Shown here: piece after piece, positions 19,571 to 33,488 of the stretch
Numbering within the stretch: position 1 is the stretch's first letter
How the letters are laid out: each line of letters begins with the position of its first letter
Assembly: GCF_000021745.1 (NCBI RefSeq)
Contig: NC_011666.1
Location: 248,001-312,000 of the forward strand
DNA: 64,000 nucleotides
Source of the DNA: Methylocella silvestris BL2
Lineage (GTDB): Bacteria; Pseudomonadota; Alphaproteobacteria; Rhizobiales; Beijerinckiaceae
Direction of reading: 5' to 3'
Made by a program: the position numbers and the translations under genes
Notes under the pieces: model-generated
The model's database searches: none
The model's input: only the letters and a program-made list of their open reading frames with translations
What the model was told of the DNA's origin: nothing

Positions 19571-19709
19571 GTCCGAAATTAGAAAATTGATCCAGCCGGT
19601 TGATGATCTGCGGCAGCCGCAAAAAATTTGATCAAATGCGTCTAGCTTGGCGCCGCTCTCCGTGCGCAGATGTCGCCGTCGCGGTGGGTCAAAAGCGGGA
19701 ATCGCGCCG

Positions 19710-22700
19710 GTGAACTCTGTTTATTCTGGCCGCCCAGCGTGCGCGTTCCGCCGTGGCCGTCAACTCATTTCCGCTTTGCTGCTGACGTTCGCGGCGCTGT
19801 CGGCCGTCTCCCCCGGCGCCGTTGCGCGAGCGCCGGATTGCGGCGCCCCGGGCGATGGCGGCGCGCTTTGCACAGGGCGCGCGGCGAGCGCCTTGCCGCC
19901 GGGACCGGCCGACCCCGCAGGCAGCCTCTCCCGCGCCAGCGTATCGGTCGCGGCGGACGATTCCGTTCTTCTCACAGTCGAGACGCCGGGACGGTTTTCC
20001 CTGCGCGCGCAAAGCGCATCGGGCGTCGCCCTGCAACTCGTCGATATGATGACCGGCCCCGGCGCGGTCGCCGGGAAAGCCGGCGCCGAAGATGGGCGCC
20101 TCGACGTTCTGCTCGATCGCGGCGTCTACAAGCTCCGTAGCTTTGGCGCCAAGGGCGCGAATGGCGAAGCCAAACTCATCCTCACCCCCTTTCGCACGGC
20201 GGCGTCGGTTTCGGGCGAATTGTTGCGCAATGGCGCTCTCAGCGCCACGCTAAGCGATCTCGAGCAGCGCTCCTATTGGATCCTCGTCAGCGGCGGGGAA
20301 CGCATATCTGTGGAGGTAGCCGGCCGCGCCCTGAAGGATCTGCGGCTGTGGCGCAACGGCGCCGATCTCGTCGATCTCGCCCCCGTCACGACGCAGGCGG
20401 AGCCGCAGCCCGGCCATCCGATCACACGGATACGGCTCGAAGGCGACGTTGAGCCGGGGCTTTATCTCGCCACAGCCTATGGCGGTCCGCCAGCTGTCTG
20501 GGCGGACCTCTCGACGGACAATCCGCTGCAAATGCGGGCCGGTCCGCCGCGGAGCCTTGCCGGCGGCTGGTTCGAGGGCGTGATCGGCGCATCGGGCTCG
20601 ACGCGCTTCAAGATCCCGCCGCCTGCGACTTATGTCCGGCTCGAACTGCCGGAACCCGCGCCGGCTCGGCTCAGCGTCGCGCGGGCCAGCGCCGCGCCGC
20701 AGACGGCGGCGATTCTGAAAACCAGCCGCGAGCCGGTCGCTTCCGTCACCGCGCCTCTGCAAGGCAATGAGCCGGCCATCGCCGAAGTGACCGGATTTGA
20801 AGGCCAGCGCTTTGCGCTACGCGCGCTCGCGCCGGCCGACAATTTGAAGATCGACGGGACGGGGCCGCATCTGATTTCGGTCGACGTCGCCGGGGAGGGC
20901 GGCGACGAGGCGCCCGCGACCGTTCTGCTGGCGCGTTTCGCCAAGGGCAAAGGCGCCGTTGTCGTTTCAAAAGCGCTGCGCGTGGCGCCGGGAGAGGCCT
21001 GGCGCGGCCGCTTCAATCTCCGCGGGCCGACGAGCCTGATCTTTGAGATATCGGGTTCCGGGCCGGTTGCGCTACGCACGCAGGGGCCCGGCGCGACGGC
21101 GACCCTTGAGCCTTTGCTCGGCGCCAATGCGCCGCGCGCGGACGGCGCCGCGCCGCGAGCATGGGACGTTGAGGCCGGCTTCTACATTTTGAAGCTCGAG
21201 CCCATTCGCGGCGCCGCTGGCGTGATCGACCTCACTTTCGGCCAGCCCGGCCTCACGCCGCCCGTTGCGGTCTTGCCGAAACGCAATTCGATCGACTTCG
21301 GCCTGCGCGAGATCGATAAGGGCGCCGCCTTCCAGATCTTCGCCAATAGCGCCCCGAACCTGATGCTTGGTCCGGTCGCGCGAAAACTCCCCGCCGATCT
21401 CTCCGCCGCGCCGCTGGTCATCGAGCAAAAGGCGGCGCAGCTCGAACAACCGCGGCCTGCGCCAGACGCTGCGCCGGCCGCGCCTCTCCCGCCGCCCCGT
21501 CCGCCTCAGCCTCAGCCTCAGCCTCAGCCTCTCTCGCCGCCGAAGTCGCCGGACAAAAAGACGCCCGCGGCGGCCGGTCAGACGGCGCCCAAACCAGCGC
21601 AAAAAGCCGAAACCAAACCTGTAGCCAAATCCGCGCCGCCGAAAGCGCAGGCCGAGGCGGCGCCCGGCGCGCTGCTCGTTCCGTTGCGCGCGCCGGCAGG
21701 CGGCGCGATCGCGGCGGCTGACGTTTCCGGCAAGCCGATCGGCGTGACCTTCCTGAACGAGGTCGCGGACAACAATGGCCGCACGCTTGTCGCGGCGATC
21801 GCCTCGGCTGACCACGACCGGCAGGTCATCCTCGCATGGTCGAAACGCGAGCCGCTTGCGCCCGTCCCGGCGATTCCGACAGTGTCCGCCTTGCCCGTCC
21901 TAGCGCCGGGCGAACCGCGCTTTCTCGATCTTGGGCGCGAAGAAACGCGCGAATTCAATCTCGATGTCGCGGAGGGGGGCCTCTACCGCGTCGAGACCCT
22001 TGGCCGGCTCAAGACCTCGGCTGTGATCGGAACCTCATTCAAACCGTCGATCGACAGCGCCTCCGACAATGGAGCGGGCCACAATGCTTTGTTGCAGACC
22101 TATTTGCGCGCCGGCCGCTACCGGATCGCCATAAGGGCTCTCGGCTCGGAAGGTCGGCTCGGCGTCGTCGCAAGACGCGCCGTATTGAAAGAGGCGGGAA
22201 CGCTTGCGCCCGAACAAAGCGCCAAAGCGGCGCTGACCAATGGCGCCGGAGCCCTCTTCGATGTCGTCGCGCCGCAAGCCGCGCCCTACAGGATCGACCT
22301 TTATTCGCTGGGCGTGGATTTTTCGGCGCGTCTCGAAGACGCCGATGGCTGGCCGCTGACGCCGCCCGGCCCGATGTCGCAGCTCCGCCAGACCCTCGAA
22401 AAAGGGCGCTACCGGCTCGTCGTGCCCCCGGTCGAAAGCGACGCCCGCGTCGTCGCGCGGCTGCGCGACATTCGCGAGCCCGAGCCCCTCGCGGGCCATG
22501 GGCCGCATCCGCTCGCTTTCGAGGCGCCGGCAAAATTGCAATGGCGTGAGCCGGCGGACTCCGGCGCGCCGCGCGACCCCGACCGATGGACCTTTGCGCT
22601 CGCGGGAGCCGCGCAAATCACGCTGAACGTTAGCGACGGCATGAGCGCCGAACTGATCAAATCCGGGGCCGAGGGAGCGCCATTGGCGCGCTTTTCGGCC

Positions 22701-25265
22701 TCGCATGGTTTTGCCGGCGAGCTTGCGGCGGGCGACTATGTCGTCGAGGCCCGCGCCATTGGGCGCAACGACCGCCTCGATTACACGCTGGCCCTCGCCT
22801 CAGTCGAGCTTCAGCCTGGCGCGCCGCGCAGCGCCGATCTGCCGGCGACCCTGCCCTTCACGCTCGCCGAAGAGCGAATCGTCAATCTGACGAGCTTTGC
22901 CTCGAAGGAGCTGACCGGCGTGCTGAAGGATGCGGAAGGGCGAACGATCGAGCGGCTCGCGGGCGGCGTGGACGATTGGAGCCTAAGCCTCGCGCGCCGC
23001 CTGCCGGCCGGCGCCTATCGGCTCGAACTTGCGGCGGCGGACGGCGCCGCCGCGTCTCCCGACGACGCAAGCCAGTCCGACGCCGACAATTCAAGCGAGG
23101 AGTCGACGGACGAGGATTCCAGCAGCGATCATTCATCTGAACCCGAGGCCGCATCGTCCGACGCTCAGGATACGGCGGCCGGCGACGCCGCGTCCGAAGG
23201 CGATGCCGCCGAGCCCGCGCCATCTTCCAAAAACGCCGTCGAACTGCGGCTCTCGCTGCCGGAAGCCGTCAAAGGGCCGGACCTCGACCTTGATGGCGTG
23301 CAGCACATCTCGGGTTTTGGCGCGCAGCAATTGGCGCTTCCGCCCGTTAGCGCCGGTGCGCTTCTCGTCGTCGCGGCGGAAGCCTCCTCCGATAGCGTGC
23401 TGTCGCTCGAACGGCGGGATCCGGGCGGCGCCTGGCGCGCGCTTGGGCAGGATCGCGGCCGCGCGCCTGTCGTCGCCATTCCCTCCGACGGCGACGAAAG
23501 CCGTCCGCTGCGCGTCACGCTGTGGCCGCTCGATGGCGAAGCCGCCATGACTGTGGCGGCGCGGGCGGTCGATCCGCGCGAAAGCCTGCGCGCGGCGGAG
23601 CTGCGGCCGCTTGCCATCGAGGGGATGTCGCAGCCTGTCCTTGTTGCGGCGGCAGGCGCTCCGTCAAAAAGCCTCGTCCGCCTCGCGGGCGCCCCAGATG
23701 GGCTGCGGCAGGGCTCGGCGCCGGGACGCATGCTGACCGAGGCTGGCGACAGCGTGCTTGCGCCGCAGTCGGAGCGCCTGTGGTTTGTGAAGCGCGGCGG
23801 CGCTGGCGCCCTGGACGTCGCGCCCTTGCCGTCGAACCTTCACGAAATCGAGCTTGATCTGGCGGCCGGCGATGTCGCGACCCTGACGCAGCCAAAGGCG
23901 GGCGAGGGGACCCTCCGCGTCTGGCGCGCCCGCTCGACCTTCGGCCAGCCGGGGCTTTCGGCCGGCAAGGGCATGGGCGTTTCGCCCTCCGGGCCGGTCG
24001 GCGAAGCGCTCGCGCTCAACGGCGGCGAGCCGCTTCGCGTCTGGAACGCCGGCGGCGACGCCGGCTTACGCGTCAGTCTGAAGGCCTTCGATCTCACGGC
24101 GCAGCCGATGGCCGCCGAGACGGATCGCTACGCGGCGACGCTTCCTGTAGGCGTCGTGCAAATGGTCGCGCTCCCCGCCGGCGCCAAGGAGATCGAGGTC
24201 AATCTCGGGCCGGGCGCAGGCGCGGTGCTGAACGGCGGCTTTGCGCCGGCGACGATCTTTGGCGGCGACAGCGCGCTGTCGCGCCGGCTCACGGGCGTCT
24301 GGACCCGCATTCTTCTGTTCAACATCGGCTCAGCGCCCGCACCGGCGTCTTTCGCATCGGCGCCCGCCCCGAACGACAAGCCGCTCGCCGCCGGCGGAAT
24401 CATGAAGCGCTTCTTCGGCGCGGCGGGATCGTCCGCGCTACGCGTCGAGGCCGCGGCGGGGGATCGTCTCGTCACAGCAGGCGCCCGCGCAACCTTTGTT
24501 GGCGACGCAGGCGCTGTTCTGCGCGGCGGCTCTTTGATCCTGCCGGGTCCGGGCGAAGCGATCCTCGATCATGACGCCGGCCTCGTCGCCGCCTGGGTCG
24601 AAAACGCCGGTCAATCGCCCTGGCCACGCAGCGAGCCGCAGATGGTTGCGCCGCCGCAAAGCGTCGCGCTCGCCGGTCAGGCGATGAAGCTGCGCTTCGC
24701 CGTTCCGGCGCCGGGGCTCGTGGTCGCGCGCTCCGACGCGCCGGTCATTCTCGCCCTCTCGCACAATGGCGTTTTGGGCGAGCCGACGCTGTTTCCGGCC
24801 GGAGCCGAGTTCCGCGCCTATGCGCCGGCGGGAGACGCCGAACTCAATCTCTATTCGCCGCATGACGGGCCGCTGTCCGGCGCGCTCTCCCTCGCGCTGG
24901 ATCCACTGATTGCGATCAGCGAGGGCGTCGGCGAGGCGCGAACGCTCGGCCCAGGCGACGCCGCGCTGTTCGCCTTCGATCTGCCGCGCGCGGCGACCAT
25001 CGGCGTCGGCGTGCGCTCCGATCCCGACAGCGCGCGCGTGCGGCTGCTCGACGAGTCCGGCCGCAGCCTGGGCGAGGGCGTTGCGCAGCTCCAGCGCTTG
25101 CAGCCTGGCCGCTACATCATCGAGGCGCGCGCGCCGGCCGATGGGGCGACGCTGACCGCGCGGCCCGCGCTCGTCGGCTTGACTCCGCCACCGGACGGAC
25201 CGCCGCCCGACGTCGCGCAGCATTATCTCGAACTTGTCGGACTAAAGCCGAGCCGCGCGCCATGA
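19710..25265 (+). CDS. Giant exported beta-rich protein, unknown function
   Basis: An unrecognised 1851-residue protein. The N-terminus has a basic stretch and hydrophobic signal segment (LISALLLTFAALSAV) ending near VARAPD, so it is exported. The body looks like an array of beta-sandwich domains: strands ending in G-x-Y recur near residues 138, 250, 490, 802, 898, 1007, 1099 and 1799 (GVYKLRS, GLYLATA, GFYILKL, GRYRIAI, GRYRLVV, GDYVVEA, GAYRLEL, GRYIIEA), reminiscent of pre-peptidase C-terminal-type domains. A Pro/Gln/Lys-rich linker spans about 581-650 and an Asp/Ser/Glu-rich linker about 1118-1174. There is no enzyme motif. GTG 19710 is my best start; TTG 19647 is the frame limit. It overlaps the alpha-2-macroglobulin frame by four bases, so it likely works with it in the periplasm. 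Confidence 0.85.
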   Translation: MNSVYSGRPACAFRRGRQLISALLLTFAALSAVSPGAVARAPDCGAPGDGGALCTGRAASALPPGPADPAGSLSRASVSVAADDSVLLTVETPGRFSLRAQSASGVALQLVDMMTGPGAVAGKAGAEDGRLDVLLDRGVYKLRSFGAKGANGEAKLILTPFRTAASVSGELLRNGALSATLSDLEQRSYWILVSGGERISVEVAGRALKDLRLWRNGADLVDLAPVTTQAEPQPGHPITRIRLEGDVEPGLYLATAYGGPPAVWADLSTDNPLQMRAGPPRSLAGGWFEGVIGASGSTRFKIPPPATYVRLELPEPAPARLSVARASAAPQTAAILKTSREPVASVTAPLQGNEPAIAEVTGFEGQRFALRALAPADNLKIDGTGPHLISVDVAGEGGDEAPATVLLARFAKGKGAVVVSKALRVAPGEAWRGRFNLRGPTSLIFEISGSGPVALRTQGPGATATLEPLLGANAPRADGAAPRAWDVEAGFYILKLEPIRGAAGVIDLTFGQPGLTPPVAVLPKRNSIDFGLREIDKGAAFQIFANSAPNLMLGPVARKLPADLSAAPLVIEQKAAQLEQPRPAPDAAPAAPLPPPRPPQPQPQPQPLSPPKSPDKKTPAAAGQTAPKPAQKAETKPVAKSAPPKAQAEAAPGALLVPLRAPAGGAIAAADVSGKPIGVTFLNEVADNNGRTLVAAIASADHDRQVILAWSKREPLAPVPAIPTVSALPVLAPGEPRFLDLGREETREFNLDVAEGGLYRVETLGRLKTSAVIGTSFKPSIDSASDNGAGHNALLQTYLRAGRYRIAIRALGSEGRLGVVARRAVLKEAGTLAPEQSAKAALTNGAGALFDVVAPQAAPYRIDLYSLGVDFSARLEDADGWPLTPPGPMSQLRQTLEKGRYRLVVPPVESDARVVARLRDIREPEPLAGHGPHPLAFEAPAKLQWREPADSGAPRDPDRWTFALAGAAQITLNVSDGMSAELIKSGAEGAPLARFSASHGFAGELAAGDYVVEARAIGRNDRLDYTLALASVELQPGAPRSADLPATLPFTLAEERIVNLTSFASKELTGVLKDAEGRTIERLAGGVDDWSLSLARRLPAGAYRLELAAADGAAASPDDASQSDADNSSEESTDEDSSSDHSSEPEAASSDAQDTAAGDAASEGDAAEPAPSSKNAVELRLSLPEAVKGPDLDLDGVQHISGFGAQQLALPPVSAGALLVVAAEASSDSVLSLERRDPGGAWRALGQDRGRAPVVAIPSDGDESRPLRVTLWPLDGEAAMTVAARAVDPRESLRAAELRPLAIEGMSQPVLVAAAGAPSKSLVRLAGAPDGLRQGSAPGRMLTEAGDSVLAPQSERLWFVKRGGAGALDVAPLPSNLHEIELDLAAGDVATLTQPKAGEGTLRVWRARSTFGQPGLSAGKGMGVSPSGPVGEALALNGGEPLRVWNAGGDAGLRVSLKAFDLTAQPMAAETDRYAATLPVGVVQMVALPAGAKEIEVNLGPGAGAVLNGGFAPATIFGGDSALSRRLTGVWTRILLFNIGSAPAPASFASAPAPNDKPLAAGGIMKRFFGAAGSSALRVEAAAGDRLVTAGARATFVGDAGAVLRGGSLILPGPGEAILDHDAGLVAAWVENAGQSPWPRSEPQMVAPPQSVALAGQAMKLRFAVPAPGLVVARSDAPVILALSHNGVLGEPTLFPAGAEFRAYAPAGDAELNLYSPHDGPLSGALSLALDPLIAISEGVGEARTLGPGDAALFAFDLPRAATIGVGVRSDPDSARVRLLDESGRSLGEGVAQLQRLQPGRYIIEARAPADGATLTARPALVGLTPPPDGPPPDVAQHYLELVGLKPSRAP
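21503..21532 (+). repeat. Hexanucleotide tandem repeat (CCTCAG)n in coding sequence
   Basis: Four to five perfect CCTCAG units encode a (PQ)n run in the linker of the giant exported protein. Changes by whole units keep the frame and would only alter linker length. Confidence 0.8.
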
Positions 25266-25288
25266 CGAGGTTCGCAAGGAACGCTCCC

Positions 25289-28200
25289 ATGAAACATCTG
25301 GCGCTCGCCTGCGCTTTCCTCCTCGCCGCCGCTTGCTTGTCGTTCGCTCCGCATCCGGCGCGGGCCGAGAGCGCGCCGCAATTCGACATTCTCGAACGGG
25401 CGGACGGCGCGCGGATCGTGCCCGAACGATTCTTGCGCAGCTGGGACCCGGTGACGCTGTTTTTCAAAAGCGACGCCGGGCCGCAAGGCGGCGGCCCAGA
25501 GGACGCGCCGGCGCAATTCGTCAAGATGACGCCCGACATTCCCGGCGCCTGGCAATGGCTTGGGCCGCGCGCGCTGCAATTCCGGCCTTCAGCGGCGTGG
25601 CGTCCGCTCGAACCGGTCATTTTCGAGGCTGACGGCGCCAGCACGCGCCTCATCCCGCTGCTGCCCGAGCCGGCCTCCACGAATCCCGCGGCCGAGTCGG
25701 AGCCGATCGCCGAACTCGATCATATCGTTCTGACCTTCGCCGGTCCCGTCGATCTCGCCGCCTTGACGCGGCTCACTTCGATCGAACTTCGCCCCGCGCC
25801 CGGCCTTGCCGGGGGCGACGGGCAATTTCTCGCCGCGCAGGATTTCACGATCCTGCCGCTTGAGGGGGCCAAGAAGGATGCCGGCCGGTCCTATCTGGTG
25901 CGGTTGAAGAATGCGGTTCCGGACGGGCGCGTCGCCATCCTGCGGCTAAAACTGTCCAACGAGCCGGGTCTTGACGAGCCCTCCTTCGAGCTGCGCCTGC
26001 AAAGCGCCGCGCCCTTCACCGTCACCGGCGCTTCTTGCGGCGAGGGGCTTGAGCGCGCCAATCTCGACGGGCTGCTTCATTGCGCGCCCTCGAACGGCGA
26101 CGACGAGCCGCGGGCGCGGAGTCTTTCGATCGGTTTCAGCGCGGCGCCGGAACCCCTCGACATCGCCAAAGCGCGCGACGCGTTGCGCATCTCGCCGCCG
26201 GTCGAGAGCCTCAAAGTTGAGCCGGACGGCGCGCATCTCAAAATTTCAGGACAGTTTCTGGCTGACACGATTTATGAGCTGACCGTTGCGCCGGGCACTC
26301 TCGCCGACGACCGCAAGCGCCAGCTCGCGGGCGCCCCTTTCCTGCAGCGCTTCGCCTTTGCGCCGGCGCGCGCAAGCCTGGCCTTCGACGTCCGTCAGGG
26401 CATCGTCGAACGCTTCGGCCCGCAGCTGATCCCGATGCGCGGGGCGGGCTTCGACAAGGTCGATCTCCGCATCTATGCGATCAATCCACTTTCGCGCGAT
26501 TTCTGGCCATTTCCGACGGAGGGCGTCGATACCGACGATTCCAAAGAGCCGCCGCTGCCCGGCAATGCGCCGGAGCGCTGGAGCAAGGACGAAGACGCCG
26601 ACGCCGACGCGATCGCGCAAAGGATCAGAGCGCTCGGCTCGCCCGCCGTCTCGGAGCTCGCGGCGCTGCCGATCCGGCGGCAGGGGGCGGGCGCCAAATT
26701 CGGGCTCGATCTCAAACCCTTCTTCGAGCGCATCAAAGGCGCTGGCGAAGCCGGCGCCTATCTCGTCGGCATGCGTCCGATCGGCGCCGACAAGCGCAGT
26801 TTTATGCGCGTGCAGGTCACGGACCTGACGCTGAGCACGGTGGAGGAGACGGGTCGCGTCCGCTTCGTCGTCACCTCGCTGTCGACGGCCAAGCCGGTCG
26901 AGGGCGCCGAGATCAAACTCGAAGGGTTGCACGAGGATAAATATGTCGCCCTCGTCTCCGGCCGAACCGACGCCGAGGGCGCCTTTACATGGGACGTCGG
27001 CGAGCCCGCCGAGGCGACCATCAAGCGCATCATCGTCGCCAAAGGCCTCGACGTTCTGGCGCTCGATCCCGCCCATGGCCCGGCCGAATATGCGAGCGAG
27101 AACTGGACCAAGCCGGAGGAAGCGTGGCTCGCCTGGACGGTCGATCCGCAGATCGACCGTGTGGAGCCTCCCCGCACGCTCTGCCATCTTTTCACGGAGC
27201 GGCCAATTTACCGGCCGGAAGAGCCGGTGGAGATCAAGGGCTATGTCAGGCGCTATCTCGGCGGCGCGCTGAGCTACGCCAAGGGCGGGGGCACGCTGCT
27301 CGTCAACGGCCCCGGCGGACAGGAATGGCGCCTGCCGGCGGCGATCGACGAGACCGGGAATGTCTACCGCAAATTCGACGCCGCGACGCCGGCGACCGGG
27401 GATTATTCGGTCGCTTTCGAGCCTGACCCCGAGGTCAAGGACGACGCCGCGGACGAGGGCGCAGAGCCGCAGGACGAGGGAGCGGAGCCGGAGGATCACA
27501 ACGCGGCGCAAGCGGAGAACGAGGGGCCGGTCTCCTGCGGGCAAACGCCGTTCAAGAAAGAGGCCTATCGCCTGCCGACCTTCGAGGTGCTGCTCAACGC
27601 GCCGCAGACCGCAACGCTCGACGGCGTGTTTTCGGTGGAGCTTCTGGCGCGCTATTTCGCCGGCGGCCTCGTCGCCGACCGGCCGATCAAATGGCGCGCC
27701 AGCCAGTTCCCCTATGCCTGGACGCCGCCCGGCCGCGAGGGCTGGTTCTTCTCGACCGACGCGCGTTTTTCCGGCGACGGCAAGTTCAAATCGACTCCCG
27801 TCCTCGAACGCGAGGGGACGACGGACGGCGCCGGGGCGGCGAAAATTGCCTTCGATCCATCGATCGAGCCGACTGCGCAGCCGCGCCGCTATCAGATCGA
27901 AGCGACGGTCGCCGGCGACGATCAATCCGAGGTGCGCAACGTCGTCTCGGTCGCGGCTTTGCCGCCCTTCGTGCTCGGCGTCAAAACGCCGCGCTACCAG
28001 AAGCAGCCGGGGCCGATCGACGCCGAAATCCTCGCCGTCGACGCCAAGGGCGCGCCGATCGAGGGGGTCGCGATGACGGCGCGCCTCGTGCGGCGCAATT
28101 GGAGTTCGACCCTGCAGGCGAGCGACTTCAGCCAGGGCGCGGCGAAATATGTAACCGAAATCGTCGACGAGACGGTGAGCGAGAAACTGATCGCCAGCGG

Positions 28201-31096
28201 CAAGGACGCACAGAAGCTTGGCTTCGAGGCGCGCGCGGCCGGCGTCTATCTGGTCGAGCTCGAGGCTTCCGACCGCAGCGGGCGAAGACAGAAGATCGCG
28301 GTCGATTTCTTCGTCGGCGGCGACAGCCCGGCGACTTTTGCGCGCGCCCCGTCGCAGACCGCCGAGGTCGCCGCCGACAAGGAGGCCTATGCCCCCGGCG
28401 AGACGGCGAGCCTCATCATCCAAAGCCCATTCCAGAACGCCCGCGCGCTGGCGATCGTCGAGGATCCTTCCGGCCGCTTCCGCTACGAATGGGTCGCCAT
28501 TGCCAATGGCTTTGGCCGCTTCGAAGTCGCCGTCGCGACGCCCGATCTGCCGAAGCTTGCCGTGCATTTTCTGATCATGCGCGGACGCCTGCCGGACGCC
28601 GGAGCCGACGCCTCGGCGCCGTTCGATCAAGGCAAGCCGGTGACGATCGCCGCGACGAAATGGATCAATGTCACGCCGGTCAAGAATATCGTGACGGTCG
28701 CGCTCGACTATCCGCAAAAGGCGCGGCCGGGCCAGGAGATCGAGGTCGCGCTGAAACTTTCCGACGATCTCGGCAAACCCGTCGCCGGGGAGGCGACCTT
28801 CTGGATGGTGGATCAGGCGGTGCTCTCGCTCGCCAAGGAGCGTCCGCTCGATCCGCTGCCGAATTTCATCGTCGACCGGCCGACGACGATGGCCGCGCGC
28901 GACACGCGCAATATGGCTTTCGGACTGATCCCGCTCGACGAGGCGCCGGGCGGCGACGCCGGCCTCGAGGAATGGGGCTCCGACAACAATGTATCGGTGC
29001 GCAAGAATTTCACGCCCGTGCCGATCTATCTGCCGAAAGTTGTCGTCGGTCCGAGCGGCGTGGTCAAAATCAAAGTCAAGCTGCCGGATTCTTTGACCAT
29101 CTTCAAGCTGCGCGCAAAGGCGATCAGCGGGTCGGAGCGGTTCGGCTTTGCGACGGGCGAAATGCTGATCCGGCAGGATCTCGTCGCGCAGCCGGCGCTG
29201 CCGCGTTTCCTGCGCAATGGCGACGTCTTCTCGGCTGCATTTCTGGGACGCGTCGTCGAGGGGCCGGCAGGCTCCGGCCGCGCCAGCCTGGCGGTCGAGG
29301 GGCTGACGCTGCAAGGGTCCGGCGAACGCAATTTCGCCTTTGAGCCGAACCATCCGGCGCGGCTCGATTTTCCTGTCGTCGTCCCGCCGTCGGGCGACAG
29401 CGCGCGCTTGCGCTTTGCGCTGAAGCGCGACGCCGATTCGGCTCGCGACGCGGTGGAAATCGAGCTGCCCATCAAGCCTGACAGGCCGGTGACGCGCGAG
29501 CGCAAAATGCTCGACGTCGCCGCCGGCGGCGCGCTAACCTTGCCGGCCATCGCGGCGAAGCTGCGTCCCGGCTCGCTCCGGCGCAGCCTCGACGTCGCCT
29601 CCGATCCCGCGATCGTCCGGCTCGTCGCCGGCCTTAACTATCTCGTCGAATATCCCTATGGCTGCACCGAGCAGCGCATCTCGCTCGCCTCGGCGGCGCT
29701 CGCGCTCAAACCCTTCGAACCGGTCCTTGCCGCTTCCGACCTCGGCGACCGGCTGACCAATGACGTGCATAATACCATCGTTGCGATCTCGCAGAGCGTC
29801 GACGCCGACGGCCTCGTCGCCTTCTGGCCGCGGGCGCGCGGAAATGTGTCGCTCACGGCCTGGGCCTATGGCTTTCTCGTCGCGGCGCAACGCGCGGGCG
29901 AGCCGGTCGACAAGGCGCTGAGCGAGCGTCTTGCCGCCGTCTTGAAGCAGTCGCTGCGCTCCGATTATGCGCGGCTTCGCACCGGCGAGGAATTGCGCGA
30001 GCGGGTCGAGGCGCTGACCGCGCTCGCCGATGGCGGCAGGCTTGATCAGGCCTATGCGGCCGAGCTCAGCCGGCGCGCCGCGTCGATGCCGAATGTCTCG
30101 GTCGCGCTGATGACGCAGGTCGCGCTGCAACTGCCCGGCGATGGCAAGCAGGTCGCGGGCGCTCTCATTGAAGACATGTGGACCCGCGTAAAATTCCTAA
30201 ACCGCAACGGCAAGGAGGTCTATGCGGGGCAGGCGGCTGATGACGGCGATCCTGAAATTTTGCCGTCCGAAGCGCGCAGCCTCGCCGAGATGACCCGCGC
30301 GGCGGCGCTCGTCGCGCCGCAGGATCCGCGCTCAAATGTGCTGCGCGACGGCTTGCTGCGCCTTGGCGCCGGCGACGGCTGGGGAGACACCAACGCCAAT
30401 GCCGCCGCGGTTCGCGCGCTTGCCTCGATCTGGCGGAAGACTTCCGCGCAAACGGATGTCAGCGTGACGCAGGACGGCAAGACGGAGACGGCTAGCCTCA
30501 GCGCCGGCGTCCCGGTCGCCCGCCTTGGCGTCAATGGCGCCGCCGAGGCGCGCATCGCCAATGCGGGCAGCGCCCCGATCGTCGCGCTCTCAAATGTCTC
30601 CTATCTGCTGGCGGAGCCCGGCGATCAGGCGCAGGCCAGCGCGCAAGGGTTTGTCGTCTCGCGCAAGACCTACAAAATTGCGGAGGGCGCGCCGCCGCTC
30701 CTGGTGGAGCCCGGCGCCGATGGCGCGATTCATATCCGAAGCGGCGATGTGATCGAAGAGGCGATCGAGCTTGTCAGCCCGCAGGATCGCACGCATGTCG
30801 CGATCACTATCCCGCTGGCGGCCGGCTTCGACCCGCTCAATCCCAATCTCGCGACGGCTCCGCGCGATGCGACGCCCAGTTTCGATCCGACGCTGGCGCC
30901 GACCTGGACCGCCTTTCATGACGATCAGGTTTTTTACGCCTATGATTTTCTGCCGAAAGGAAACTATCGCTTCGCCTTCCGCGCCAAGGCGATGATCGAA
31001 GGTAGCTTTACGCAGCCGCCCGGCGAGACTGAGACGATGTATCAGGCAGGGGTCCATGGCTCGAGCGCCGGACGGCGAATCATCATCGCCAAATAG
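25289..31096 (+). CDS. Bacterial alpha-2-macroglobulin with thioester (YfhM-like)
   Basis: A large periplasmic protease-trapping protein. The reactive thioester motif is intact: YPYGCTEQ, with Cys1459 counted from ATG 25289. Upstream lie the MG-type beta domains (LCHLFTERPIYRPEEPVEIKG marks the MG2/3 boundary, KLPDSLTIFKLRAKA the region before the thioester domain); the thioester domain and C-terminal MG10-like part follow. ATG 25289 has AAGGA and starts the signal peptide MKHLALACAFLLAAA; ATG 25262 overlaps the previous stop. Cleavage after PARA is likely, although the cysteine in LLAAAC leaves a lipoprotein form open. An acidic insert sits at 27424-27535. As in enterobacteria, it is followed by pbpC, consistent with defence of a cell wall under repair. 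Confidence 0.93.
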   Translation: MKHLALACAFLLAAACLSFAPHPARAESAPQFDILERADGARIVPERFLRSWDPVTLFFKSDAGPQGGGPEDAPAQFVKMTPDIPGAWQWLGPRALQFRPSAAWRPLEPVIFEADGASTRLIPLLPEPASTNPAAESEPIAELDHIVLTFAGPVDLAALTRLTSIELRPAPGLAGGDGQFLAAQDFTILPLEGAKKDAGRSYLVRLKNAVPDGRVAILRLKLSNEPGLDEPSFELRLQSAAPFTVTGASCGEGLERANLDGLLHCAPSNGDDEPRARSLSIGFSAAPEPLDIAKARDALRISPPVESLKVEPDGAHLKISGQFLADTIYELTVAPGTLADDRKRQLAGAPFLQRFAFAPARASLAFDVRQGIVERFGPQLIPMRGAGFDKVDLRIYAINPLSRDFWPFPTEGVDTDDSKEPPLPGNAPERWSKDEDADADAIAQRIRALGSPAVSELAALPIRRQGAGAKFGLDLKPFFERIKGAGEAGAYLVGMRPIGADKRSFMRVQVTDLTLSTVEETGRVRFVVTSLSTAKPVEGAEIKLEGLHEDKYVALVSGRTDAEGAFTWDVGEPAEATIKRIIVAKGLDVLALDPAHGPAEYASENWTKPEEAWLAWTVDPQIDRVEPPRTLCHLFTERPIYRPEEPVEIKGYVRRYLGGALSYAKGGGTLLVNGPGGQEWRLPAAIDETGNVYRKFDAATPATGDYSVAFEPDPEVKDDAADEGAEPQDEGAEPEDHNAAQAENEGPVSCGQTPFKKEAYRLPTFEVLLNAPQTATLDGVFSVELLARYFAGGLVADRPIKWRASQFPYAWTPPGREGWFFSTDARFSGDGKFKSTPVLEREGTTDGAGAAKIAFDPSIEPTAQPRRYQIEATVAGDDQSEVRNVVSVAALPPFVLGVKTPRYQKQPGPIDAEILAVDAKGAPIEGVAMTARLVRRNWSSTLQASDFSQGAAKYVTEIVDETVSEKLIASGKDAQKLGFEARAAGVYLVELEASDRSGRRQKIAVDFFVGGDSPATFARAPSQTAEVAADKEAYAPGETASLIIQSPFQNARALAIVEDPSGRFRYEWVAIANGFGRFEVAVATPDLPKLAVHFLIMRGRLPDAGADASAPFDQGKPVTIAATKWINVTPVKNIVTVALDYPQKARPGQEIEVALKLSDDLGKPVAGEATFWMVDQAVLSLAKERPLDPLPNFIVDRPTTMAARDTRNMAFGLIPLDEAPGGDAGLEEWGSDNNVSVRKNFTPVPIYLPKVVVGPSGVVKIKVKLPDSLTIFKLRAKAISGSERFGFATGEMLIRQDLVAQPALPRFLRNGDVFSAAFLGRVVEGPAGSGRASLAVEGLTLQGSGERNFAFEPNHPARLDFPVVVPPSGDSARLRFALKRDADSARDAVEIELPIKPDRPVTRERKMLDVAAGGALTLPAIAAKLRPGSLRRSLDVASDPAIVRLVAGLNYLVEYPYGCTEQRISLASAALALKPFEPVLAASDLGDRLTNDVHNTIVAISQSVDADGLVAFWPRARGNVSLTAWAYGFLVAAQRAGEPVDKALSERLAAVLKQSLRSDYARLRTGEELRERVEALTALADGGRLDQAYAAELSRRAASMPNVSVALMTQVALQLPGDGKQVAGALIEDMWTRVKFLNRNGKEVYAGQAADDGDPEILPSEARSLAEMTRAAALVAPQDPRSNVLRDGLLRLGAGDGWGDTNANAAAVRALASIWRKTSAQTDVSVTQDGKTETASLSAGVPVARLGVNGAAEARIANAGSAPIVALSNVSYLLAEPGDQAQASAQGFVVSRKTYKIAEGAPPLLVEPGADGAIHIRSGDVIEEAIELVSPQDRTHVAITIPLAAGFDPLNPNLATAPRDATPSFDPTLAPTWTAFHDDQVFYAYDFLPKGNYRFAFRAKAMIEGSFTQPPGETETMYQAGVHGSSAGRRIIIAK
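27424..27535 (+). repeat. Acidic repeat insert in alpha-2-macroglobulin
   Basis: The segment codes a run of Asp/Glu with a direct repeat of DEGAEP (DEGAEPQ, then DEGAEPED) between two beta domains. It looks like a flexible acidic loop added to the family core. Confidence 0.55.
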
Positions 31097-33488
31097 CGCG
31101 CGCGCGCCAGACTGGCGGCGATCGGCCCTGCTTGCCTGTGGCGTCGCGCTGGCGGCGCTCGGCGTGCAATTTTCGATCGTCGTCGATCAGCGCGCGCAGC
31201 TGATCTCGCCCGCGCCGACGCCGATGCTCTACGATCGGCATGGCGTTTTTTTCGCCCAGATCGGCGCGCCCCGAATAGATCGCAATCAATCCAAAATCAT
31301 GAGACGCGATCGATTCGAGTGTCCGAAGCAGGATACGGGCGAAAAACCGGTATCCGCTTTTCCTCATCCCGCTCCATGCGGCAAAGCCGGCGCGCCTCTC
31401 CTCGACTACGGCTATTGGCCGATGAAAAATCTCCCGGACCGAATCGTCCGCGCGACGCTGGCTCTGGAAGACCGTCGTTTTTACGCCCATCCCGGCGTCG
31501 ATCCGATTGCGGTCGCGGGCGCGGCGTGGCGTCGCTTTCGTTCGGGCGCCCGAGCGGGAGCCTCGACGCTCGCCATGCAGATCGCGCGCATGCAGCATCC
31601 GGCGCCACGGAGCCTCAAGGCCAAGATCGAGGAGGCTGCCACCGCCGTCGTCCTGACGCAGCGTTACGGCCGTGAGGCGCTGCTCGCGCATTATTTGCGC
31701 CTCGCGCCCTATGGCAATGGCAGCCATGGCATCGCTCACGCGGCGCGCTTTTATTTTGACAAGCCAGCAGAGGATCTGAGTTTTGCCGAAATCGCGTTGC
31801 TTTCCGCTCTGCCGCAATCGCCGACGCGGCTCAATCCGTTGCGGCCGTGGGGCCTGTTTCAGGCCAAGCGGCGCGGCGCCCGCGCTTTGGCCGAACTGGC
31901 GCGCCAGAAAGTCATCGATGGCGTCGAACTCAGCCTTGCGCAAAGCCAGCTGAAGGCGCTCTCGCCGCAACCGCCGCTGCGCCGCCCCGAGGCGCTGCAT
32001 CTGGTGCTGCGCTATGAAAATCTCATGCGACGCCAGCCCCTGCGCGAAGGCGGCGATCCTCGCGTCAAAACGAGCATCGACCTCGACGCGCAGCGGCGAT
32101 TGACGGCGCTGGCGCGGCGTTCTCTCAACGTCTGGCGCGGCGCCGGCGCGGGGCAGGTGGCGGCCATGGTCGTCGAGCGAGGGAGCGGCGCGGTCGTCGC
32201 CGCGCTGGGCTCCAATGACTACGATGACAAGCGAGCCGGCGCGGTGGATTTCACCCGCGCGCCGCGTTCGCCCGGCAGCGCGCTAAAGCCCTTCATCTAT
32301 GCGCTGGCGCTTGATCGCGGCGTGGCGCGGCCGGGCGGCGTCCTCGCGGATCTGGCGGAGGGAGCCTCGGGCGTCAGCAATGCCGACGGACATTTTCTCG
32401 GGCCGATGCTGCCGCGTCAGGCGCTCGCCAATTCCCGCAACGTGCCGGCGATCAATCTTCTGCGCGGCGTCGGCCTCGACGAGGCGCTGCATTTCCTGCG
32501 CAAGCTTGGCCTCACCGAGATCTCGGCGCCGGCCGATAGTTTCGGCGTCGCCATGGCGCTCGGCGCGCTGCCGACCACGCTGGAGCGGTTGGTGCGGGCC
32601 TATGGCGCGCTCGCCGACGACGGGATGCTCGGCGAGCTCGTCTGGTTCAAGGATGGCGTGCGGCCGTCCTCCGTCCGAGTAATGTCCGCTGACGCGGCGC
32701 GGCTTGTGACGTCGTTTCTGTCGGATCCGATGGCGCGGTTGCCGAGCTTCCCGCGCTACGGCCCGCTCGAATATCCCTTTCCGGCGGCGGTCAAGACCGG
32801 CACCTCGCAGGGCTACCGCGACGCAGTGACCCTTGCCTTCACCCGCGACTACATCGTCGGCGTCTGGCTGGGGCGCCCTGACGCCGGCACAATGACGCGG
32901 CTCACCGGCTCCAATTCAGCCGCGCGGCTCGCGCGGGCGATCCTGATCGACCTGCACAAGACCACGCCCGGCGATCTCGAGAATCTCAGCTTTCCGCCGC
33001 CGCAGGGCCGCGTCCCCGTCGAGCTTTGCCTGTTCGGCGCCATGCGCGCCTCCTCGGCGAAGGGGTGCGGCCAAACCTTGACCGAATGGCTGCGGCCGGC
33101 CGAAATTCCGGCGCCAGAGGCCGAGACGCCAATCCCGGCGCGGCAAAGAGCCTGGGCGATCGCGGAAGGGTATCGCGTGACCAGTGATGAACGCGCGCCG
33201 GCGGAAACGATGCAGGACAACATCCGCCTGTCGATCGTCTCGCCGGAAAACGACATCCGCGTCTGGCGCAATCCCGACGCGCCCGCTAGTCTCTCGCGGA
33301 TTTCCCTGAAAGCGCTGGTCGAGCCGAAGACGCCGCAAGTGGTGTGGTATGTCGATGGCGCGCCCTTCGCCCTCGCCGACCCCGACGCGCCGCTCAACTG
33401 GCCGTTGCAGAAGGGCGCGCATCAATTTCAACTGCGCTTGCCGTTGCGGCCGGGCGCCTCGAAAATCGTGCGCATCACAGTTGAATGA
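31056..33488 (+). CDS. pbpC: Penicillin-binding protein 1C
   Basis: Bifunctional class A penicillin-binding protein, 810 residues, anchored by one N-terminal helix (LLACGVALAALGVQF). The GT51 glycosyltransferase motifs are ALEDRRFYAHPGVD, GASTLAMQIARM and RYGREALLAHYL. The transpeptidase motifs are SALK with Ser408, SRN in NSRNVPA and KTGTSQGYRD. The C-terminal 90 residues match the BiPBP_C domain. It overlaps the alpha-2-macroglobulin gene by 41 bases, with AGGGG before ATG 31056, so it is translationally coupled. Between FFAQIGAP and DYGYWPM, where other PBP1C proteins have a short loop, about 35 residues are encoded by an inserted palindromic repeat (31280-31378). Whether the enzyme tolerates this is not known, but every catalytic motif is intact. 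Confidence 0.94.
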   Translation: MARAPDGESSSPNSARAPDWRRSALLACGVALAALGVQFSIVVDQRAQLISPAPTPMLYDRHGVFFAQIGAPRIDRNQSKIMRRDRFECPKQDTGEKPVSAFPHPAPCGKAGAPLLDYGYWPMKNLPDRIVRATLALEDRRFYAHPGVDPIAVAGAAWRRFRSGARAGASTLAMQIARMQHPAPRSLKAKIEEAATAVVLTQRYGREALLAHYLRLAPYGNGSHGIAHAARFYFDKPAEDLSFAEIALLSALPQSPTRLNPLRPWGLFQAKRRGARALAELARQKVIDGVELSLAQSQLKALSPQPPLRRPEALHLVLRYENLMRRQPLREGGDPRVKTSIDLDAQRRLTALARRSLNVWRGAGAGQVAAMVVERGSGAVVAALGSNDYDDKRAGAVDFTRAPRSPGSALKPFIYALALDRGVARPGGVLADLAEGASGVSNADGHFLGPMLPRQALANSRNVPAINLLRGVGLDEALHFLRKLGLTEISAPADSFGVAMALGALPTTLERLVRAYGALADDGMLGELVWFKDGVRPSSVRVMSADAARLVTSFLSDPMARLPSFPRYGPLEYPFPAAVKTGTSQGYRDAVTLAFTRDYIVGVWLGRPDAGTMTRLTGSNSAARLARAILIDLHKTTPGDLENLSFPPPQGRVPVELCLFGAMRASSAKGCGQTLTEWLRPAEIPAPEAETPIPARQRAWAIAEGYRVTSDERAPAETMQDNIRLSIVSPENDIRVWRNPDAPASLSRISLKALVEPKTPQVVWYVDGAPFALADPDAPLNWPLQKGAHQFQLRLPLRPGASKIVRITVE
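31280..31378 (-). repeat. Palindromic repeat element inserted in frame within pbpC
   Basis: Two parts are visible. The first, 31284-31318, matches the intergenic core at 19536-19570 on the opposite strand. The second contains a hairpin, GGATACGGG-cgaaaaa-CCGGTATCC, at about 31331-31355. The organisation resembles the short palindromic extragenic repeats common in this bacterial order. Here it is read through without a stop. Boundaries are approximate. Confidence 0.65.

Follow-up and report, generated by a model that had tools for sequence, protein, structure and literature searches.

Since 2004 a role in periplasmic defence and repair has been proposed for the A2M–PBP1C pair acting as one unit, with alpha-2-macroglobulin (A2M) as a protease trap and penicillin-binding protein 1C (PBP1C) as a repair enzyme (PMC5764988, PMC4498604). 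In Methylocella silvestris BL2, whose genome is a single 4.3-Mb contig, this pair is preceded by a gene for an 1851-residue protein, raising the question of what the giant protein is and which of its neighbors it serves. The window analyzed here is a 64,000-nucleotide stretch of that contig. Gene structure, adjacency, co-occurrence, repeat homology, and the presence of an LprI domain in relatives with its probable ancestral state were all established by computation.

Organization of the three-gene locus

The locus contains three overlapping forward-strand genes, and the coordinates given for them in the initial annotation were confirmed. Their features are:

19710..25265, + strand: gene of the giant A2M companion protein, predicted to be exported, 1851 aa, GTG start (ORF list, reading, and relatives)
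19710..19832, + strand: predicted Sec signal peptide, residues 1–41, ending ...AVARA/PDC (by reading; N-termini of relatives are signal-like)
19833..19889, + strand: LprI domain stub, residues 42–60, with C44 and C54 kept (domain complete in the sister locus L082)
20529..20840, + strand: predicted PPC-like beta-sandwich domain of the N-module, residues 274–377 (AlphaFold2 model, VIA-align)
21438..21665, + strand: proline-rich linker, about residues 577–652 (sequence, low pLDDT)
23034..23234, + strand: acidic Ser/Asp/Glu linker, about residues 1109–1175 (sequence, low pLDDT)
24891..25181, + strand: predicted C-terminal PPC/PliG-like domain, residues 1728–1824 (fold comparison of the model)
25262..31096, + strand: A2M, 1944 aa, with a Sec signal and no clear lipobox (A2M Pfam domains, reading)
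29663..29674, + strand: A2M thioester motif CTEQ, residues 1468–1471, within PYGCTEQ (by reading)
31056..33488, + strand: PBP1C (pbpC), 810 aa (Pfam transglycosylase, transpeptidase and BiPBP_C domains)

The giant frame is open already from a TTG at 19647, upstream of the GTG at 19710. The giant and A2M genes share an ATGA overlap at 25262 and the A2M and pbpC genes overlap by 41 nt. The ATGA overlap, the thioester, and the proline-rich and acidic linkers named in the initial annotation are each present. The A2M and pbpC genes have the hallmarks of a type I A2M–PBP1C module: A2M has its Pfam domains and a CxEQ thioester, as CTEQ at residue 1468, and the adjoining pbpC encodes transglycosylase, transpeptidase and BiPBP_C domains. 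The order is that of E. coli yfhM–pbpC, where a thioester A2M gene is followed by pbpC (PMC5764988, PMC4498604), but here an obligate third gene takes first place. Unlike the E. coli A2M, which is anchored in the inner membrane, the A2M here has a Sec signal and, by reading, no clear lipobox; the A2Ms of its branch, also judged by reading only, are alike in this.

The giant gene is not a chance ORF, because its reading frame is kept in relatives at 30–87% identity. Export of the product would be by the Sec route, judging from the signal peptide predicted by reading. A single-sequence Pfam search with the protein returned nothing at E≤1, and comparisons with NCBIfam, PHROG and PDB sequences gave sub-threshold matches only, none convincing; no confident match to a characterized family with an unrelated role emerged.

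Distribution of the giant family and its linkage to A2M

Among named relatives, the closest are Methylocella silvestris TVC, at 86%, and M. tundrae, at 61%; relatives at 43–44% are found in Rhizobium plasmids and genomes. Of the 248 genomes sampled from the window's own family, 36 have the giant (a count that takes in the window's genome), as do three genomes from other families class-wide and two genomes detected in the phylum sample only. In the genome with locus L112 the giant gene itself is without an internal part. Another genome within the phylum encodes a shorter giant of 1337 aa (L133:3764-7774), with A2M and then PBP1C still downstream.

A2M lies directly 3′ of the giant in all 39 loci with enough downstream DNA, spanning Beijerinckiaceae, Rhizobium, other alphaproteobacterial families and one genome from the phylum sample only; the intervals were measured between open frames and are hence approximate. 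Six loci that run to contig edges (L006, L008, L009, L105, L113 and L134) were left out of this count. Reciprocally, when the window's A2M was used to search these 248 genomes, 38 matched, of which 36 also have the giant; the two A2M-positive genomes without it are G435, with a 27%-identity A2M, and G546, with a fragment at a contig edge. Within the sampled family, each A2M belonging to this branch (at or above 43% identity) is accompanied by the giant, save the one truncated where its contig stops. The giant–A2M gene pairing is real and strong. The coupling to A2M first put forward from the window sequence thus holds across the family, and in no evaluable locus does the giant lie away from an A2M gene.

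Across the class, co-occurrence with the giant is confined to A2Ms at 43% identity or above (G787, G750, G669), the remaining matches being at 24–28%. Thirteen distant alphaproteobacterial A2M loci (L120–L132, G435 among them) have no giant, with L124 being weak evidence as it stops near the A2M start. The giant marks one branch of A2M. PBP1C is next in nearly all giant–A2M loci. However, in three genomes (G534, G595 and G558; loci L097, L099 and L110) the giant and A2M genes adjoin while pbpC sits elsewhere in the genome. Since the giant and A2M stay together where pbpC has moved off, A2M rather than pbpC is the true partner of the giant, which tracks A2M more closely.

The idea that the giant replaces a lost A2M lipid anchor was rejected, as alphaproteobacterial A2Ms without a giant are also without a lipobox where the N-terminus is readable, and there is no contrast between the two groups. 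In Rhizobium the A2Ms beside the giant (L001, L002, L005, L007) have STEQ for CTEQ, the thioester cysteine having been lost by one substitution.

The predicted beta-sandwich array and the N-terminal LprI domain of relatives

The initial annotation listed eight strands of the G-x-Y type and proposed an array of beta-sandwich domains. The strands are real: nine G-x-Y motifs are present (Tyr 140, 252, 492, 759, 804, 901, 1010, 1103 and 1802), compared to ~2 expected from composition, and each is kept in 95–100% of 41 relatives. When the segments around these motifs were compared as profiles, 16 of 35 pairs exceeded 50% probability, versus 0 of 70 with reversed segments, so the array consists of about nine homologous repeats. 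AlphaFold2 models of residues 60–660 and 645–1844 show strand nearly throughout, at modest confidence (mean pLDDT 59 and 59.6, pTM 0.36; built from 8- and 6-sequence alignments). In the modest-confidence model the domain at residues 274–377 aligns (VIA-align) with the collagen-binding domain 1nqj at Z 9.7 and the PPC domain 5sv5 at Z 9.0. The modeled last domain (residues 1728–1824) matches PPC/collagen-binding domains at Z 11.4–11.7 (1nqj: Z 11.7, 1.9 Å over 87) and the g-type lysozyme inhibitor PliG (4dzg) at Z 11.6, 2.1 Å over 95 residues. The repeats are thus predicted to be G-x-Y beta-sandwiches of the PPC type, with fold matches at Z 9.0–11.7, and models, fold matches and repeat homology together support the proposed array.

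The likeness to PPC/collagen-binding domains and PliG lies in the predicted fold of single repeats (Z 9–11.7); the giant differs from them in having no sequence-level match, no peptidase, and about nine copies per chain. No PPC domain (PF04151) scored above the Pfam gathering threshold, the one weak match being in one relative at 19.4 versus 25.9 bits. The array profile found no sequence in the PDB, and a profile search with the last domain gave no PliG sequence match and weak, unrelated PDB sequences only. The modeled resemblance to PliG is a lead rather than a test, because PPC domains and PliG score alike.

The array stood up as first described; what that account missed is an N-terminal LprI domain (PF07007, 'lysozyme inhibitor'), probably ancestral, that many relatives have and that is present here as a stub. 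One Rhizobium relative is named 'lysozyme inhibitor LprI family protein' in RefSeq, and the domain is N-terminal and above the gathering score of 22 in L002 (33.2 bits), L005 (36.3), L008 (38.9) and L084 (37.9). It was found in 7 of 18 giant relatives scanned at E up to 0.01, including L103 at 17.5 bits, under the cut-off of 22, and in 15 loci with a model built from the Rhizobium and Rhodoblastus-type domains. In the window's giant no Pfam family scores above the gathering threshold and there is a two-cysteine stub only. An order-wide search with the full giant profile returned mostly free LprI proteins, and the profile was therefore rebuilt without LprI.

On a tree of 41 rows built from the array alone, the three states of LprI require four changes, and the domain is absent or a stub in 28 rows, the window included. 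The four Methylocella-type rows with the two-cysteine stub form one clade (support 100) and the domain is complete in the sister row, L082, such that LprI appears to have been worn down to the stub in Methylocella. The simplest reading is that LprI is probably ancestral in the giant family with several losses, the deepest part of the tree being unsure because of the long branches at its base (L103–L105). Having been lost several times, LprI is not essential to the giant–A2M pairing. The Rhizobium rows are nested inside the Beijerinckiaceae rows (support 100), which suggests transfer into Rhizobium.

LprI and A2M are linked a second time, independently, at L128 (L128:2109-7199), where a distant A2M has LprI fused at its own N-terminus (29.6 bits versus the cut-off of 22) and is followed by pbpC, with no giant. 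The N-terminus of the A2M in L125 resembles, by eye, a PAN/apple-type cysteine domain. Our literature search found no paper naming both macroglobulin and LprI.

The giant's relatives bear a genuine four-cysteine LprI at the N-terminus, as in LprI proteins such as M. tuberculosis LprI and Salmonella ScwA, but here it heads a 1700-aa beta array (and is a stub in the window), and M. tuberculosis LprI also has an MliC domain. It is doubtful that LprI itself inhibits lysozyme: ScwA confers no lysozyme resistance and affects the lytic transglycosylase MltD instead, and its authors suggest that inhibition by M. tuberculosis LprI stems from the MliC domain (PMC7933661).

Proposed role of the giant protein

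The Mag system offers a precedent for A2M partners encoded in the A2M operon (PMC5764988). In the Pseudomonas Mag operon the type II A2M MagD is encoded with MagA, MagB and MagF, and the likeness is that of an A2M with dedicated periplasmic partners from the same operon, as we infer here. The Mag operon differs in that MagD is without a thioester and MagB has a transmembrane segment, and the two are likened by description, not sequence. Taking the strict pairing, this precedent and the architecture together, the giant is probably a dedicated periplasmic partner or scaffold of the thioester A2M, ancestrally with a muramidase-binding head. A scaffold role was among those suggested initially, and may hold.

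In the periplasm, the Sec-exported giant would partner one branch of type I A2M, its nine or so PPC-like beta-sandwich repeats forming an extended chain of two or three modules joined by flexible linkers, proline-rich and acidic. Most likely it binds or organizes A2M, as MagB and fellow Mag proteins do for the Pseudomonas type II A2M, and the protease trap would thereby be kept stable and placed near peptidoglycan and PBP1C; direct binding, scaffolding, this localization and the action of LprI are what we infer. The ancestral LprI would have been a head engaging muramidases, whether lysozyme from outside or lytic transglycosylases of the cell itself, and the ancestral module may have united protease trapping and wall repair with control over enzymes that cut the wall. 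With its head cut to a two-cysteine stub, the Methylocella giant should retain the A2M-partner role alone.

As far as our literature search reached, the giant family is undescribed. It is a large protein family bound to one A2M branch in gene order and presence. The ancestral LprI and the independent LprI–A2M fusion are two separate lines hinting at a tie between A2M and enzymes that cleave peptidoglycan, and they make the defence-and-repair hypothesis testable. Naturally occurring variants are available, with LprI kept, reduced to a stub or lost, pbpC moved, and the thioester cysteine changed to serine in Rhizobium.

A more specific version, which we advance only tentatively, is that the giant joins its muramidase-binding head to a long scaffold carrying the thioester A2M, in an envelope-defence module where proteases and enzymes that cut the wall would be trapped jointly next to the repair synthase PBP1C.

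It is rather unlikely that the giant is chiefly a lysozyme or muramidase inhibitor, its LprI head and PliG-like last domain both acting on enzymes that cleave peptidoglycan, and is linked to A2M only via shared envelope defence. The above-cut-off LprI scores in relatives, the rank of PliG among the best folds for the last domain (Z 11.6) and the fusion in L128 are all in keeping with this. However, the loss or reduction of LprI in most tree rows, the doubt over lysozyme inhibition by LprI itself (PMC7933661), and the lack of a PliG sequence match argue against it. The resemblance to PliG is generic, as PliG itself has the PPC fold and PPC domains give matches just as good, and common purpose alone would not predict such strict adjacency.

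That the giant is a peptidoglycan- or glycan-binding structural array, tethering the wall and supporting PBP1C rather than A2M, is unlikely. In other proteins PPC domains serve for binding, as in collagen-binding domains, and pbpC is in the same operon at most loci, but the three genomes with pbpC elsewhere retain adjacent giant and A2M genes, and most A2M–pbpC pairs elsewhere have no giant.

The initial proposal of a degenerate macroglobulin or bait-presenting decoy is very improbable. In its favor are the macroglobulin-like size, the array of beta-sandwiches and fold matches of single domains (Z about 6–7) to parts of A2M-family proteins. Against it are 0 of 162 segment–A2M window profile comparisons above 50%, no MG, TED or A2M Pfam match in the 18 relatives scanned, repeats closer to PPC with best folds among PPC/collagen-binding domains, and the LprI head. 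At the sequence level the array is not macroglobulin-derived, and nothing was found to favor a decoy or bait presenter.

Two further features of the window lie beside or within the locus. A short-chain fatty acid transporter gene (PF02667; 33507-34943) begins 18 nt past pbpC, and a frame resembling the PF02667 transporter is also 3′ of pbpC in L003 and L004. A 1035-aa open frame on the minus strand (26246-29353), antisense to the A2M gene, is probably a by-product of high G+C.
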